NCBI GenBank assembly: GCA_945865885.1
Contig: CAMBEZ010000002.1
Location: 62,001 to 126,000 of the forward strand
Origin: Owenweeksia hongkongensis DSM 17368
GTDB taxonomy: Bacteria; Bacteroidota; Bacteroidia; Flavobacteriales; Schleiferiaceae
Reading direction: 5' to 3'
Length of the DNA stretch: 64,000 nt
Made by a program: the position numbers and the translations under genes. Positions 57,305 to 64,000 of the stretch are shown in pieces (the stretch's first letter is position 1; every line of letters starts with the position of its first letter). The notes under the pieces are model-generated. The model was not told where the DNA came from, made no database searches, and worked only from the letters and a program-made list of their open reading frames with translations.

Positions 57305-58585
57305 TCAATCCCGGCGCTGTTCCGGATAGGTCAGAGCGTCCAACCGCTTCAACAACGGTTGGCTGGTGCGTTCAAAAGCGCCGCGGTACCGATCCGGAAT
57401 GGGTTCGCTGTTGGGCAATTTCAGCGCCAGCGGGTTGACTTGGCGGCCGTTGACCCAAAAGCGGTAGCAAACGTGCGGCCCGGAGGCCAAACCGGTGCTG
57501 CCCACGTAACCAATCACTTGGCCTTGGGACACGCGTGCGCCGGGGCGGATGCCAGATGCAATCCGGCTCATGTGCAGGTACTGTGTGCTGTAGGTGCCGT
57601 TGTGCCGCACTTTGACGAACTTTCCATTTCCAGAATTATACCCCGCTTTGTCCACCACACCGTGGGCAGTAGTTTGGATGGGTGTTCCCGTTGGTGCTGC
57701 GTAGTCCGTTCCCAAGTGGGCTTTCCATCGGCGCTGGACCGGGTGAAAACGGTTCATGGTGTATTTGGACGTGATGCGAAAAAAGTCCAACGGAGCTTTC
57801 AAAAACATCTTTTTCAGGCCCTTGCCGTCCCGGTCAAAGTAGCCCGAAAAACCGGTGGCGGTGTCGTTGAAATAGAGGGCATAGATGGGCTTTCCTCCTT
57901 GTTCAAAAACCGCGGCCAAAACCCGTCCAGCTCCAACGGAAACCGTGTCGTCCACAAACTTCTCTTCAAAAACCACCTTGAAACGATCTCCCGGCTGCAC
58001 CCGGAAGAAGTCGATGGTGTAGGCATAGACTTCCGCCAATTTCACCGCCACGGCCGCAGAAACATCCTGCTCCTGCAACGTTCCAAAAAGGGAACCTTCA
58101 ATCACGGCCGCCACCTGACGCTCCCGGGTAACCACCGGGCGTTCTACGGACTTGACGTACAGTGAGTCCCCGCACGAAAACAAGACGTACCGGGTGGGAG
58201 ACTCCTCGTAAATCAAGTAAAGCAGTGATTTTTCCGCATCGCGCTTGCGAACTGCAATGTAGGTTTCGTCCGCACGCCAGGTGGACGGACGGAAAGCAGA
58301 GCCCGCACGGGCGATGAGGGCATCCGCTCGTGGGTAGGACATGCCCATTGCGTGCAACAATTCCCCCAAGGTTTCTCCGGAGCGAACCGTGTCCCGGTCC
58401 ACGTGAAATTGGTGGCTGCCAAATCCAAACAGGTACAGCGGTGCTGGAGTGCGCAACGCTGCCCGCTCTGGGCTTAAAGCAACCGGACGGGTGGAAACCA
58501 CGGCCCAAAAAACACCGATGACGGCTACCGCAAAAAAGGCCCAAACCGCACCGCGGCGGTAAATTTTGCGTTCGGATTTGTTCAT
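57305..58585 (-). CDS. M23 family metallopeptidase (peptidoglycan endopeptidase)
   Basis: 426 residues from MNKSERKIYRR; about 100 extra codons upstream lie in the TDO-like gene and are rejected. One N-terminal helix (about 12-32) anchors the protein. A long mixed region precedes the LytM/M23 domain (about 275-400) with HLGTDYAAPTGTPI (H-x3-D), YSTQYLHMSRIA (HxH-like region) and GLASGPHVCYRFW (second H). These supply the zinc ligands. It cleaves peptidoglycan cross-links or processes stem peptides. The ATG overlaps the upstream TGA by 4 bp, so it is the last gene of the four-gene two-component operon. Confidence 0.9.
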   Translation of the reverse strand: MNKSERKIYRRGAVWAFFAVAVIGVFWAVVSTRPVALSPERAALRTPAPLYLFGFGSHQFHVDRDTVRSGETLGELLHAMGMSYPRADALIARAGSAFRPSTWRADETYIAVRKRDAEKSLLYLIYEESPTRYVLFSCGDSLYVKSVERPVVTRERQVAAVIEGSLFGTLQEQDVSAAVAVKLAEVYAYTIDFFRVQPGDRFKVVFEEKFVDDTVSVGAGRVLAAVFEQGGKPIYALYFNDTATGFSGYFDRDGKGLKKMFLKAPLDFFRITSKYTMNRFHPVQRRWKAHLGTDYAAPTGTPIQTTAHGVVDKAGYNSGNGKFVKVRHNGTYSTQYLHMSRIASGIRPGARVSQGQVIGYVGSTGLASGPHVCYRFWVNGRQVNPLALKLPNSEPIPDRYRGAFERTSQPLLKRLDALTYPEQRRD

Positions 58586-59559
58586 GCCTGAGGGTCTAAG
58601 GAAGCCAGTTGTTGATCCACCCATTTTTTGCCCCATTCTTCCTGCTCCTGTTCGGACCACATTTCGGGGAAGAAAATTCGCTTTTGGAACCGCGGAGGCA
58701 GGTAACGCTGCCAATTGGTGCCGCCCGTTGCCGGAGCGTCCGACGGTTTTTTGGCCAAGTACTTCACCGCGGTTCGGTAGTGCTGCAGCGGCCAGTCCAC
58801 GTTGATTTGGTGGTCCAATCCGCGCAAAGCCTGGACCAATTCGGGGTTTTGACGGTCCTCGTCGGACAGGTTCTGAACCAAATCCCACAAGGTATTGCCG
58901 CGCCAGCGCAACGCTGTCGTACGGAAGGTTTCGCCGTACTTGGCTTCAAACTGGCGCAAAGTGAGCGTTTTCTCGCCCGTTTCTTCCAAAGTAGCGCCTT
59001 GGCGCCAGTACACATGGTCCAAGAGCACCTGGGGGTCTGCACCTTGTTCCATCAGCGCGGCGCGATGCTCCAACTGCACCAAATGCTCCAACCGGGTGGA
59101 CGCAAATTCCAGAAAACGGTACTGGGCAGACTGAAAACCAGACGCGGGAATGAGGGCCAGTCGGAATTTCAAAAACTGCTCACGCTCCATTCCGTCCGCC
59201 ATGACGCCAAAACTGGTGGCCAGGGCATGAAAATACCGGTTGACGCGGTTGACGCGGCGAACCAGTTCCTCGAGGGTTGCGGGTACCGCGGCGTCCACCA
59301 GCGGTTCCAACTCGTGACGGGACAACTTGAAGTACAGTTCCGTGATTTGGTGGTACATGATGAAAATGGGCTCGTCCGGATACGCCGTGCGCGGTTTCTG
59401 CAACGTGAGCAGCGTGTCCAACTGGACGTAGTCCCAATACGTAATGTACTCCGTCCTATGCAGCCCTTCCAGGAAAGAGGCCAAATCCTGACCGTCCGCA
59501 GCGTACTTGGCCGCCAAAGACGCCAGTTGTTCTTGAACTTCAGGGCTTAAGGTACTCAT
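58582..59559 (-). CDS. Tryptophan 2,3-dioxygenase family heme protein
   Basis: 325 residues of the TDO family. FIMYHQITELYFKLSRHEL holds the distal histidine, KFRLALIPASGFQSAQYR matches the substrate loop, and the proximal heme ligand is likely H260 in PLQHYRTAV, followed by PATGGTNWQRYL, equivalent to the GTGGSSG loop. The Tyr of the substrate pocket is Phe here (QFLKFR). The enzyme would open the indole ring of tryptophan to N-formylkynurenine, yet the Bacteroidota branch is not biochemically proved. No kynurenine pathway genes are nearby. The gene overlaps the histidine kinase before it and the M23 gene after it by 4 bp each. Confidence 0.85.
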   Translation of the reverse strand: MSTLSPEVQEQLASLAAKYAADGQDLASFLEGLHRTEYITYWDYVQLDTLLTLQKPRTAYPDEPIFIMYHQITELYFKLSRHELEPLVDAAVPATLEELVRRVNRVNRYFHALATSFGVMADGMEREQFLKFRLALIPASGFQSAQYRFLEFASTRLEHLVQLEHRAALMEQGADPQVLLDHVYWRQGATLEETGEKTLTLRQFEAKYGETFRTTALRWRGNTLWDLVQNLSDEDRQNPELVQALRGLDHQINVDWPLQHYRTAVKYLAKKPSDAPATGGTNWQRYLPPRFQKRIFFPEMWSEQEQEEWGKKWVDQQLASLDPQA

Positions 59560-60560
59560 GAGGTTGCTGCTTTTTCCAGAGTAAAAGAAAAGGTGGACCC
59601 CACTCCGCGGGTGGAAGTGGCGTGAATTTGCTGCTTGTGGGCTTCCATGATGTGCTTCGCAATGGACAATCCCAGGCCCGTGCCGCCCACGTCTCGGGAG
59701 CGGCTCTTGTCCACCCGATAAAAACGCTCAAATATGCGCGGGAGGTCGGATTCGTCGATGCCAATGCCGTTGTCCGAGACCTTGATCAAAAAACGATCTT
59801 CCAAATCCAAAATATCCACGGTGACGAGGCCTTTCTGCGGTTGGGAGTACTTGATGCCGTTGGAAATCAGGTTGTGGAGCACTTGCTCTATTTTTCGGGA
59901 GTCGCCCAGGGCTTTGTAAATGCGCTCTTTGTCTTTTTTCAAGACCAATTCAACGCCTGCGTCGCGTGCCGACGGCTCCAATTCCTCCAAAACTTCTTTC
60001 AAAGCACGGACCACGTCGAAGGTACCCATCTCCAAGGCAACGGCACCGGATTCCAACCGAGACAATAAATCCATTTCCTGGATGAGGGCGGTCATGCGGT
60101 CCACACTTTTGGCGGCTTTTTCCAAAAACTTTCGGTTGACTTTTGCGTCTTCCAAACCGCCGTCCAGCAGCGTAAATAAATAGCCTTGGATGTTGAAAAC
60201 AGGAGTTTTGAGCTCGTGAGAGAGATTTCCCATGAATTCGCGCCGAAAACCTTCCCGGTCCAACAACCCTTGAATTTGTTGATCTCGGTTTCGGGCCCAA
60301 GACTCCACGTCTTGCTCGACGTCATCCAAACTCACGCGTGAAGTTGCCGCGGTCCCTGGATCTTTTAAAATGGCGTAAATGGCCTTCAGACGTCGGTACA
60401 AAAACTGGTGCACCATTCCGTAAACGAGAATCGCCAAGGCGACGCCAAAGGCTAATGATTTCCAAAGCCGCTCCAAATCGTCCGGAAGCAGCCACCAAAG
60501 ACCCGCTCCGGCCAACAGACCGGCGAGAAAAGCAATTTGTTCGGGACGCTCAAAACGCAT
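59556..60560 (-). CDS. Sensor histidine kinase, PhoR-like
   Basis: 334 residues. Two N-terminal helices (about 8-25 and 34-52) with almost no periplasmic loop are followed by a linker and the kinase core. H-box FMGNLSHELKTP puts the phosphorylated His at 115; N-box HNLISNGIKYS, G1 DNGIGIDESD, F-box FERFYRVDKSRSRD and G2 GGTGLGLSIAKHI follow. This arrangement is that of the PhoR branch, and a periplasmic sensor domain is missing. The kinase starts 9 bp after its response regulator. Regulation by phosphate is suggested by the repeats upstream of the divergent operon (61318-61336) and is inference. Confidence 0.9.
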   Translation of the reverse strand: MRFERPEQIAFLAGLLAGAGLWWLLPDDLERLWKSLAFGVALAILVYGMVHQFLYRRLKAIYAILKDPGTAATSRVSLDDVEQDVESWARNRDQQIQGLLDREGFRREFMGNLSHELKTPVFNIQGYLFTLLDGGLEDAKVNRKFLEKAAKSVDRMTALIQEMDLLSRLESGAVALEMGTFDVVRALKEVLEELEPSARDAGVELVLKKDKERIYKALGDSRKIEQVLHNLISNGIKYSQPQKGLVTVDILDLEDRFLIKVSDNGIGIDESDLPRIFERFYRVDKSRSRDVGGTGLGLSIAKHIMEAHKQQIHATSTRGVGSTFSFTLEKAATS

Positions 60561-60569
60561 CCCGCTAAG

Positions 60570-61247
60570 TTAGCCCTCGAATTTGTACCCTACGCCCTTG
60601 ATGGTGCCAATTTTCTCATCCCCTATTTTCTCACGCAGCTTGCGGATGTGCACGTCAATGGTACGGCCTCCTACCACCACATCCGTTCCCCAAACGGAGT
60701 CCAAAATGGCCTCGCGGGTAAACACTTTCCCAGGTTTGGAGGCCAGCAAAAGGAGTAGCTCAAATTCTTTGCGCGGCATGTCCAACGGATTGTTGTCCAC
60801 AAAAACTTTGTACTGTTCCGTGTCAATGGTCAAATTGTTCCGCACGATGGGCCCTTTACCTACAATGCCTCCACGCCGGCGAAGCAAGGCGTGAATGCGG
60901 CTCACCAGAATTTTGGGTTTGATGGGCTTTGCAATGTAATCGTCCGCACCAGCGTCCAAGCCCGCCACTTGAATGGAATCTTCGTTGCGCGCCGTCAGGA
61001 AAACAATCAAGCAATTTTGCGTTTCCGGCAATTTGCGCAGCGCCTCGCACGTCTCCATGCCGTCCATCTCCGGCATCATCAGATCCAACACCACCACATC
61101 GGGCTTGAATTTTTTCGCCAACTCCACAGCCAAACGCCCGTTGGAGGCCGTTTGAATTTGAAAACCTTCGTTCTCTAGGTTGTACGAAAGAAAGTCCAGA
61201 ATCGACGGTTCGTCGTCAACCAGAAGGATGCGTGCGGATTGGGCCAT
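60570..61247 (-). CDS. OmpR/PhoB family response regulator
   Basis: 225 residues. The receiver domain (1-120) has the acidic pair D11/D12, the phosphorylation site D55 in VVLDLMMPEMDG, the Thr in FLTARNED and the Lys in YIAKPIKP. A winged-helix OmpR/PhoB DNA-binding domain follows (about 130-225: RKEFELLLLLASKPGKVFTREAILDSVWG, TIDVHIRKLREKIG, IKGVGYKFE). It is expected to bind direct repeats with 10-11 bp spacing. A TACCTTTG box lies 26 bp before its ATG. It heads the operon with the kinase, the TDO-family gene and the M23 peptidase. Confidence 0.94.
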   Translation of the reverse strand: MAQSARILLVDDEPSILDFLSYNLENEGFQIQTASNGRLAVELAKKFKPDVVVLDLMMPEMDGMETCEALRKLPETQNCLIVFLTARNEDSIQVAGLDAGADDYIAKPIKPKILVSRIHALLRRRGGIVGKGPIVRNNLTIDTEQYKVFVDNNPLDMPRKEFELLLLLASKPGKVFTREAILDSVWGTDVVVGGRTIDVHIRKLREKIGDEKIGTIKGVGYKFEG

Positions 61248-61273: not shown

Positions 61274-61281
61274 CAAAGGTA
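61274..61281 (-). promoter_or_regulatory. -7 promoter box (TACCTTTG) for the response regulator operon
   Basis: TACCTTTG on the minus strand, 26 bp before the ATG at 61247. A TTG at 61297-61299 is placed 15 bp further upstream and may act as the -33 element. Confidence 0.55.
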
Positions 61282-61305: not shown

Positions 61306-61321
61306 TAAGTTGCGCAACTTA
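61306..61321. promoter_or_regulatory. 16-bp perfect palindrome in the divergent region
   Basis: TAAGTTGCGCAACTTA is fully self-complementary and lies between the two divergent promoters. Its right arm overlaps the first TTAACC repeat. It could be a dimeric operator, but no regulator is assigned. Confidence 0.5.
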
Positions 61322-61336
61322 ACCTACAATTAACCT
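61318..61336 (+). promoter_or_regulatory. Pho-box-like direct repeat before the secreted endonuclease/phosphatase operon
   Basis: CTTAACCT, three bases, then ATTAACCT: two 8-bp direct repeats with an 11-bp period, which is what OmpR/PhoB-type regulators bind. They end four bases before the -33 element TTTG (61341-61344), a position expected for an activator. The sequence resembles the cyanobacterial Pho box, which uses the same spacing. Confidence 0.5.
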
Positions 61337-61340
61337 GGCG

Positions 61341-61368
61341 TTTGGCAGAGCACTTTGTCGTAATTTTG
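61341..61368 (+). promoter_or_regulatory. Promoter (TTTG ... TAATTTTG) of the endonuclease/phosphatase operon
   Basis: TTTG at 61341-61344 and TAATTTTG at 61361-61368 fit the -33 and -7 elements of Bacteroidota with a 16-bp gap. The ATG follows 7 bp after the -7 box, so the leader is at most a few bases. Confidence 0.65.
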
Positions 61369-61375
61369 TCAGCTT

Positions 61376-62671
61376 ATGCGTTTAAAAACGATTCTTTGGG
61401 TTTGTCTGTTGGGTTGGAGCGGCAGTGCCTGGGCACAAGCACCGGCTCGCCTGACGCTCATGACCTACAACATCCTGAATTACAGAAACTTCACAAGCTA
61501 CTGTACGTCTTCCAACAACAACCCGGTGGCCAAGGAAGCTGCGTTGCGGGAGGTTGTTCAGTACCTGCAACCGGACCTCCTGGTGTGCAATGAAGTAGGC
61601 GGTGCTACCCCCTCCGCCCACGAGAAAATTTTGACGGACGTATTGAACACCAACGGAGTGAACCGTTGGGCGTCCACCTCCTACACCAACAACGGTTTCT
61701 CAACCCTGGTGAACGGGATCTACTACGACAAAAACAAACTGGGGGTCAAACGGGAACAAATCGTCACCAAGACCTTGACCAACACGGACATCGTTCGCGT
61801 GCTGGACGTGGTTCAATTCTACTACAAGGATTCGCTGCTGGATTGGAACCCAGACACCACCTTCTTCACCGTGGTGGGCGCGCACTTGAAAGCGGGTTCC
61901 GCAACAACAGATTTGTCCGACCGCACCGCGGCTACCGCTGCCCTGATGCAGTTCCTCACCCAACGCGTGCCAGACCCGAACGTATTAATGGGCGGCGATT
62001 TCAATATTTACAAAAGCCAAGAAGCAGCGTTTCAGAATTTGATCAACCACACCGTGGCGTCCGAACGGTTTTACGACCCCATTGGGCAATTGGGCACGTG
62101 GACCAACAACGCCAACTACGCACCGTACCACAGCCAAAGCACCCGCAACGCCAACACCAACGGCGGCTGTTTCTCCGGCGGAGGGCTGGACGACCGGCTG
62201 GACCACTGGTTGCTTTCTGCGAACGTCAAAAACGGCACGGACAAAGTAGCCTACGTGCCGGGCTCGTTCCGGGTGGTGGGCAACGACGGCATGCACTTCA
62301 ACCAAGGCATTGACGAGGGCACTAATTTCAGCGTTCCCGCAAACATTCGCTCGGCTTTGTACGCAATCTCAGACCACTTGCCGGTGCTGGTGGAATTGGA
62401 GGTGCAGCGCTTGGGCATTGGTTTGGACGAAACCGCCGCGGCGCAGCGCTACTGGCAGCAAACGCGGGACGCCAACGGAGTTACGTCTTTGTACTGGCGG
62501 GGACCCCTGCCCACGCAGGTGGATGCCTACGACGCCTACGGGCGCTGGGTCCACACCCAACGCGTCGAACAAAACAACCAGCCATTGGAGCGACCTTCGG
62601 CTGCGTCCGGTTTAATCTTCTTGCGCTCCGGGAATGGATCCTCGTCCGCAACCTATACTTGGGCACCCTGA
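61376..62671 (+). CDS. Secreted endonuclease/exonuclease/phosphatase (EEP) fold protein
   Basis: 431 residues. A signal peptide (ending SGSAWAQ) is followed by an EEP/DNase I-like domain (about 25-345) whose catalytic residues are all visible: Asn in MTYNILNY, Glu in VCNEVGG, His in VGAHLKAG, Asp/Asn in MGGDFNIYK and Asp/His in ISDHLPVLVE. The final part (about 350-431: VDAYDAYGRWV, GLIFLRSG, ATYTWAP) resembles a degenerate T9SS type A sorting domain, so export by SprA is plausible. Such enzymes hydrolyse nucleic acids or phosphoesters and could help release phosphate. A Pho-box-like repeat and a good promoter lie just upstream. Confidence 0.85.
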   Translation: MRLKTILWVCLLGWSGSAWAQAPARLTLMTYNILNYRNFTSYCTSSNNNPVAKEAALREVVQYLQPDLLVCNEVGGATPSAHEKILTDVLNTNGVNRWASTSYTNNGFSTLVNGIYYDKNKLGVKREQIVTKTLTNTDIVRVLDVVQFYYKDSLLDWNPDTTFFTVVGAHLKAGSATTDLSDRTAATAALMQFLTQRVPDPNVLMGGDFNIYKSQEAAFQNLINHTVASERFYDPIGQLGTWTNNANYAPYHSQSTRNANTNGGCFSGGGLDDRLDHWLLSANVKNGTDKVAYVPGSFRVVGNDGMHFNQGIDEGTNFSVPANIRSALYAISDHLPVLVELEVQRLGIGLDETAAAQRYWQQTRDANGVTSLYWRGPLPTQVDAYDAYGRWVHTQRVEQNNQPLERPSAASGLIFLRSGNGSSSATYTWAP

Positions 62672-64000
62672 TGAAGCAAAATCAAACTGTTCCGCATGCG
62701 ATCGCACTGCTGGCCCTGCTTGTGGTTTTGTGGCTGGGTGCGGTGGCTCCGGCTGGAGCGCAGAGTTTTGACGAGAAGGTAACCCGTGCCTCCAACGTCC
62801 GATTGAACGTGACCAACGTGGGTACGTTTGGCAATGCCTTCCGCGGCTACCGCGACGGTTCTGGGCTGCCCTCTTGCGAATACCCCGCCGGATCCGGCAC
62901 GGAACACCTTTTTGAGTCCGGTATTTGGATTGGCGGCAAGGAAAACGGCGGCCCCGTGCGGGTTTCCACCTCTGCCTACGACGCCCCGCAAGGCTACGCC
63001 CCCGGCCGGGGAGGATTTGAATTTACCGCCCCCGTGGGCTCCTACCTACAAGAACGCAGCTCCCTCACAGACAACCCCAACTACGCGGTGGATGCGGTTT
63101 CCCACCAGGACTTTGTGTCCCAATTTACGGACGCTAACCTCTTGGTTCCCGGCACCAACATCCCCATTTCCAACCACCTCAACCCCATGAACGTGGAGGT
63201 GCGCATGGAAACCTACAACTGGAACTATCGGTTTTCGGACTTCTTCGTGTTGGTCAACTTGGTCTTCAAAAACGTGGGCGCCAGCACCTACGAAGACACC
63301 TACATCGCGTTGTGGAACAACAGCGTGGTGCGCAACATCAACGTCACTCCTGCGGGTGCCGGTGGCGCGGTTTTTTACTCCCAGGGCGGCAACGGTTTCA
63401 TCGACTCCCTCTCCATGAACTACCGGTTTGACGCGTCCGGCGACCCCGGCTTCACGGACTCCTACATTGGCCAGAAATTCTTGGGCGCAGAAGACAAGAA
63501 CGGCTTCCGGCATCCGTCCTTGAATCCCAATTTCAAGACGAACTACAACGCGTGGGTTTTCAACAATTCTGGGCAGTCGCTGTACTTTTTCCCGACCACG
63601 GAAAACCAGCGCTATGCCAAGATGAGTCAAGGCCTGAACCAAGACCCTTGCTGGACAGATCCTTCCGGCGTTCCTTGCCAATCCGCATCCGGTGTCAACA
63701 TTCAAGCCCAATTGAACCAAGCTGGAAACCGCTCGGATTTGCTAAGTGTTGGCCCGTTTGCATCCTTTGCCCCAGGCGATGAACTGCGGGTGGCCTTTGC
63801 CTACGTGCTGGGAGCGAAAAAGGACGACGGCCTGCCCAATGCAGCCAACACCGCAGAACAGAAATCCATCTTCCTCTCCAACGCCAGCTGGGCGCAGACG
63901 GCTTTCAATGGAGAGGACGTCAATTTTAATGGCCTTTTGGACGCGGGCGAAGACAAGGACGGCAACGGCAAAATCACGCGGTTCATCCTTCCTACCCCAC
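62671..64000 (+). CDS. Large exported protein, N-terminal part (truncated by window edge)
   Basis: The ATG at 62671 shares its A with the TGA of the preceding gene (TGATG), so the two are coupled. At least 443 codons are open to the right edge. A signal peptide (MKQNQTVPHAIALLALLVVL, ending PAGAQ) is followed by beta-rich sequence with many Asn, Gly, Ser and aromatic residues. Near the end of the visible part, DVNFNGLLDAGEDKDGNGK has Asp/Asn spacing like a calcium-binding loop. I do not recognise the family. Similar long exported proteins in this phylum often end in a T9SS sorting domain, which cannot be checked here. Confidence 0.75.
   Translation, partial: MKQNQTVPHAIALLALLVVLWLGAVAPAGAQSFDEKVTRASNVRLNVTNVGTFGNAFRGYRDGSGLPSCEYPAGSGTEHLFESGIWIGGKENGGPVRVSTSAYDAPQGYAPGRGGFEFTAPVGSYLQERSSLTDNPNYAVDAVSHQDFVSQFTDANLLVPGTNIPISNHLNPMNVEVRMETYNWNYRFSDFFVLVNLVFKNVGASTYEDTYIALWNNSVVRNINVTPAGAGGAVFYSQGGNGFIDSLSMNYRFDASGDPGFTDSYIGQKFLGAEDKNGFRHPSLNPNFKTNYNAWVFNNSGQSLYFFPTTENQRYAKMSQGLNQDPCWTDPSGVPCQSASGVNIQAQLNQAGNRSDLLSVGPFASFAPGDELRVAFAYVLGAKKDDGLPNAANTAEQKSIFLSNASWAQTAFNGEDVNFNGLLDAGEDKDGNGKITRFILPTP

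Follow-up and report, generated by a model that had tools for sequence, protein, structure and literature searches.

Near the end of the window (the whole 64,000-nucleotide stretch that was analysed), a 128-bp gap separates the gene of a response regulator, read on the minus strand, from that of a secreted protein of EEP (DNase I-like) fold, read on the plus strand, and within this gap lies the tandem repeat CTTAACCT-ACA-ATTAACCT (Table 1). An initial annotation had claimed a repeat with an 11-bp period at this place and two-component genes leaving the same gap on the opposite strand, and both claims were borne out, with regulator and kinase on one strand and the EEP gene on the other. No sensor domain was recognised by Pfam in the kinase. 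Downstream of the EEP gene, its stop codon overlaps the ATG (62671) of a gene for a large exported protein in a TGATG junction; the large exported protein directly follows the EEP gene in 44 of 80 loci, indicating that the two-gene operon is conserved. Two further genes lie in the neighbourhood. A tryptophan 2,3-dioxygenase-like gene (58582-59559), downstream of the kinase, scores above the Pfam cut-off and far below the NCBIfam equivalog cut-off, and the third gene after the EEP gene, just past the window (L406:3603-5822), encodes a T9SS protein of 740 aa that matches ExeM/NucH weakly.

Table 1. Features of the divergent gap and of the genes on either side of it.
Feature	Position	Strand	Remarks
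PhoR-like histidine kinase	59556..60560	-	HisKA and HATPase domains only
PhoB-type response regulator	60570..61247	-	Receiver and winged helix; orthologous to the regulator that is linked to pst in the order
Regulator promoter -7 element, TACCTTTG	61274..61281	-	42 bp from the nearer half-site
Probable Pho box, CTTAACCT-ACA-ATTAACCT	61318..61336	+	Core TTAAC-N6-TTAAC, facing the EEP gene; half-sites 61318-61325 and 61329-61336, ACA linker 61326-61328, period 11 bp
Proposed EEP -33 element, TTTG	61341..61344	+	16 bp from the -7 element; unconfirmed
EEP promoter -7 element, TAATTTTG	61361..61368	+	31 bp after the second TTAA; TAnnTTTG consensus
Secreted EEP-fold (DNase I-like) protein	61376..62671	+	Family-invariant active-site residues
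Large exported protein	62671..64000	+	Second operon gene; 720 aa in the full contig, leaves the window

The regulator (Pfam Response_reg, 105.5 bits; Trans_reg_C, 81 bits) and the adjacent kinase, with its HisKA and HATPase_c domains, form a pair of the OmpR/PhoB type. The best NCBIfam match of the regulator is PhoB (TIGR02154), at 214.9 bits against an equivalog cut-off of 296.2 bits; since the pst-linked orthologues of the order also score only 211–218 bits, this cut-off does not discriminate here. The closest named contigs are Schleiferiaceae/Cryomorphaceae MAGs, the nearest being RE-27jun17-9 (98% identity of the regulator), and about one copy per genome is present in 52 of 60 relatives. 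Linkage to phosphate genes was found in these relatives, not inside the window: the regulator adjoins a divergent pstS in G046, lies near pstS in G043 and G050, and has NptA no more than 10 kb away in 13 genomes. By this synteny, with pst as its neighbour in relatives, the window regulator is a PhoB orthologue. At another locus (L125, G033:C16:7500-16500), a Pit-type transporter is flanked by two PhoB-like regulator copies.

The EEP fold was assigned from structure prediction. Both the fold and the catalytic N/E/H/D-N/D-H residues of the EEP superfamily were found: the predicted structure (pLDDT 78) matches Nocturnin, TDP2 and DNase I with E ~1e-12, and N32, E73, H170, D208, N210, D333 and H334 are invariant across the family. 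At the level of sequence, PF03372 scores 16.8 bits with the window protein, below its cut-off, and reaches 5e-9 in one relative; a PDB sequence search with the EEP protein gave zero matches. A signal peptide is apparent. We infer that the enzyme would act as a nuclease or phosphodiesterase.

The extended pair TTAACCT-N4-TTAACCT occurs once in exact form in the window, where the other five matches all carry three mismatches (about 2.8 expected by chance). It is also single in the whole 1.8-Mb genome, with zero further matches at one mismatch. In the sister species the gap reads CTTAACTT-ACA-ATTAACGT; the CCT ends are altered, whereas the TTAAC cores and their spacing are kept, indicating that the true unit is TTAAC-N6-TTAAC. 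The feature had been drawn as far as 61344, which is the end of the proposed TTTG, so that the repeat does stop 4 bp short of the -33 position as claimed; that spacing stands, and the -33 element itself is unconfirmed.

We compared 60 related genomes, using shuffled upstream regions as the control. TTAA pairs at spacing 11 precede the regulator in 32 of 52 genomes, versus 2.8 in the shuffles, and most other spacings stay close to background, apart from extra peaks at 20, 31 and 42. The nearer half-site lies 30–31 or 41–42 bp from the regulator -7 box in most genomes, a pattern that looks like an autoregulatory operator. Upstream of regulator genes (e.g., L058, L100, L101 and L103), additional TTAA copies at 20, 31 and 42 bp accompany the 11-bp pair, and such copies suggest that arrays of two dimers may form at the regulator promoter. 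Treating the regulator-class sites as plain direct sites was rejected, as 16 of the 21 score higher when reversed.

EEP homologues exist in most genomes of the family, mostly away from the regulator. Even so placed, they carry the spacing-11 pair upstream in 15 of 26 cases (0.8 in shuffles), and a slightly wider half-site definition yields a site together with a -7 box in phase for 20 of the 26, from 14 genera. The second half-site is then 15, 25–27 or 36–38 bp from the EEP -7 box, and 17 bp in one case. Pit-type phosphate transporters behave similarly, with the pair upstream of 17 of 22 (0.8 in shuffles) and mostly 25–27 bp to the -7 box. When EEP and Pit upstream regions are pooled, spacing 11 is present in 38 of 48, versus at most 7 for each other spacing from 6 to 21. 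Among 250 control ORF upstream regions from the same loci, six were in phase, namely three EEP genes missed by the filter, two genes of the large exported protein and one unrelated gene. These boxes before EEP genes remote from the regulator support the earlier reading that the two-component pair controls the EEP operon. Bacteroidales EEP genes had zero in-phase sites, and the link between EEP and box is therefore confined to Schleiferiaceae and near relatives.

It had also been predicted that the same repeat would stand before other phosphate genes, and this was mostly confirmed, as the host Pit gene and the pstS, NptA and porin genes of relatives show the same phasing. In the host genome, Pit has a spacing-11 TTAA pair at -51 with a -7 box 26 bp past the second half-site, and the other two genomes of the genus keep the site. 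NptA upstream regions contain the pair in 8 of 29 cases, versus 1.4 in shuffles. In pst-bearing relatives from the order, nearly all TTAA-11-TTAA sites in the 36.5 kb of four loci lie in gaps belonging to regulator, pst, NptA, porin or permease genes, and their distances to the -7 box are 37 bp for pstS, 26 bp for NptA (a Na/Pi cotransporter) and 26/37 and 27 bp for porins. In G043, which has the same layout as the window, a single site lies 41 bp from the -7 box of the regulator and 27 bp from that of a divergent porin; one box common to two divergent promoters thus does occur. A common tandem box therefore precedes several phosphate genes at a promoter-compatible distance, as in a Pho regulon.

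The host genome (94% complete) yielded no pstS, phoU or NptA, and a PstSCAB-PhoU sensing module was not found in it; PstS was found in 0 of 36 further genomes of the family (0 of 37 with the host). The Pit-type transporter of the host (L186:298-2487, G000:C2, outside the window) has ~730 aa and matches PHO4 in two stretches. It also has a long C-terminal part without assignment, and the transporter is a candidate for passing the signal to PhoR in place of PhoU.

The window site was scored with a 25-bp weight matrix for which 35 target sites from other genera were used, and the scan covered the window and ~300 kb of host-genome loci, some of them overlapping. Read toward EEP, the site reached 19.1 bits with this matrix and 18.9 bits once the own genus was added to the training set, the latter equal to the mean of left-out targets (18.9). 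The next best position in the window reached 7.3 bits, and the same site read toward the regulator scored -1.9 bits. A simulated 1.8-Mb background contained zero matches of at least 18 bits. Plain pattern counts in the host, tried as a measure of enrichment, gave no excess (54 pairs at spacing 11, 49 at spacing 12), and we therefore relied on conserved position and phasing as the test. The promoter-side subset in the host comprised 17 spacing-11 pairs versus 5 in the control.

Further host sites precede ppk, pafA and genes for a cupredoxin/LTD T9SS protein, a MORN protein and GAPDH. As family-wide members, ppk and pafA were rejected, their sites occurring in the own genus only. The long motif TTAACNNNNNNTTAACATTA, searched in exact form in the 60 genomes, gave 15 matches, several at regulator, pst and permease genes and others at MORN and unrelated genes. 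Two high-scoring Pho-box-like pairs precede a small secreted MORN-repeat protein (G000:C19, L128:1465-1520, outside the window), and similar MORN proteins are found downstream of exact sites in the relatives L158, L159 and L161. The T9SS protein of 1295 aa (G000:C2:135829, L407:170-4057, outside the window) has cupredoxin, lamin-tail and ExeM-like parts, and its -7 box lies 16 bp from a TTAAC pair; it is possibly another low-phosphate secreted nuclease.

No promoter was found by a sigma-70 promoter scan, a blank that is expected in Bacteroidota. Promoters were called with TAnnTTTG as the -7 consensus (PMC9723704). Measured on this basis, the 42 bp between the window site and the regulator -7 box fall inside the regulator class, whereas the 31 bp to the EEP -7 box lie between the 25–27 and 36–38 bp of the family, about half a turn off. 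Distances of 29–30 bp, counted by eye on gap sequences, were found at RR-adjacent EEP genes of another genus. As these EEP distances are off phase, the box may serve mainly the regulator in such lineages. Either a half-turn shift is tolerated in the shared layout, or the EEP promoter is activated weakly or not at all from the window site.

Taken as sequence evidence, these data indicate that the neighbouring phosphate-type regulator very probably docks at the window repeat, and that this is probably a Flavobacteriales-type Pho box common to the regulator and the EEP operon, serving both divergent promoters. We hold with good confidence the explanation as a whole, namely a Pho box through which the adjacent PhoB-type regulator would control its own gene and the EEP operon. 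The likely signal is low phosphate, and given that the same box precedes EEP and phosphate-uptake genes, the nuclease is probably made under phosphate scarcity. In the mechanism that we propose, the phosphorylated regulator would bind both half-sites as a tandem dimer, control its own promoter from the distance also seen at other regulator promoters, and activate the divergent EEP operon. Under low phosphate, nucleic acid or phosphodiesters outside the cell would be cleaved by the secreted enzyme, and the phosphate so freed would enter through the Pit transporter.

It is unlikely, in our view, that the regulator is a PhoB homologue with a changed job, such as the sensing of envelope or redox stress, for which phosphate genes are only a part of the targets. 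The loss of pst and phoU from the host, the absence of PstS from the other family genomes searched, the kinase without a recognised sensor domain and the host matches before MORN, GAPDH and cupredoxin/LTD genes would all fit such a change, as would the Riemerella PhoP, which has an ArcA-like motif and is tied to the Bat operon (PMC9603813). However, Pit retains the site throughout the family, the grammar at pst, NptA and porin genes of relatives is identical, and phoB of Flavobacterium johnsoniae is induced by low phosphate (PMC8115612).

We give little credence to the site being an autoregulatory operator only, with an EEP gene that is merely adjacent in the own genus and not controlled. Genomes that have EEP at another place still keep the site at the regulator, and it is the regulator distance, not the EEP one, that is in phase. 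Against this stand the orientation of the site (about 19 bits toward EEP versus -1.9 toward the regulator), the in-phase sites that EEP genes elsewhere in the family own, and the sharing of one site in G043. That the repeat arose by mere chance in this AT-rich gap is hardly credible: TTAA pairs are frequent and their host total at spacing 11 does not rise above the spacing-12 control, but the genome holds the exact pair only once, background matches at this score are close to zero, the core is kept in the sister species and the same genes carry the site in many genera.

Returning to the favoured explanation, a Pho box shared by regulator and EEP operon, we propose more tentatively, at somewhat less than even confidence, that it reflects a Pho regulon without the Pst-PhoU sensor, whose grammar of 15/26/37 bp would be kept throughout Schleiferiaceae, with EEP and the large exported protein as a core target and a kinase that would read phosphate otherwise, perhaps via Pit. 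In the literature covered, which is incomplete, we found no paper defining a Flavobacteriales Pho box (TTAAC) tied to phosphate genes. Expression studies have already revealed low-phosphate control in Bacteroidota. The outcome here is a testable motif with promoter distances, in which the secreted EEP nuclease operon is named as a core member, and it raises the question of how PhoR senses phosphate without Pst and PhoU in small aquatic genomes.

In Escherichia coli, the PhoB-PhoR-Pst system is autoregulated and senses phosphate through Pst and PhoU. Its Pho box has been described (PMC1906773). The window resembles this system in its PhoB-type regulator, in 11-bp tandem half-sites near a promoter and in the autoregulation proposed here, and differs from it in the sequence of the half-sites and in a host genome without Pst and PhoU.

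Riemerella belongs to the same order as the window organism. For PhoP of R. anatipestifer, DAP-seq gave a motif with the core TTTAACA, resembling that of E. coli ArcA, and EMSA showed autoregulation; PhoPR is reported to be up in phosphate starvation, and its targets are mostly non-phosphate genes (PMC9603813). The TTAAC core and the autoregulation, proposed for the window regulator, are alike by description, whereas the mostly non-phosphate targets are not. In F. johnsoniae under low phosphate, phoB, the secreted nucleases EndA1 and EndA2 and a polyphosphate-kinase-like gene are induced, PafA being constitutive and not low-phosphate-induced; no binding motif was found in the portion of that text covered by the search (PMC8115612). 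Its nucleases are of the Endonuclease I type, whereas the window enzyme is EEP.

The cyanobacterial SphR Pho box consists of CTTAACCT repeats with 3-bp linkers (PMC1906773), and likeness to it was part of the initial claim for the window repeat. The likeness holds for the TTAAC core and the 11-bp period and is partly accidental over the full 8-mer. At least three copies are present there, whereas the window has two (8/8 and 7/8 identity), the flanking C..CT of the window varies between sister species, and the window promoter has a Bacteroidota -7 box. The two boxes are alike in period, core and, as proposed for the window type, control of phosphate genes, and the Synechocystis phoA-nucH operon, in which nucH is named as a nuclease, itself carries a Pho box (PMC1906773).
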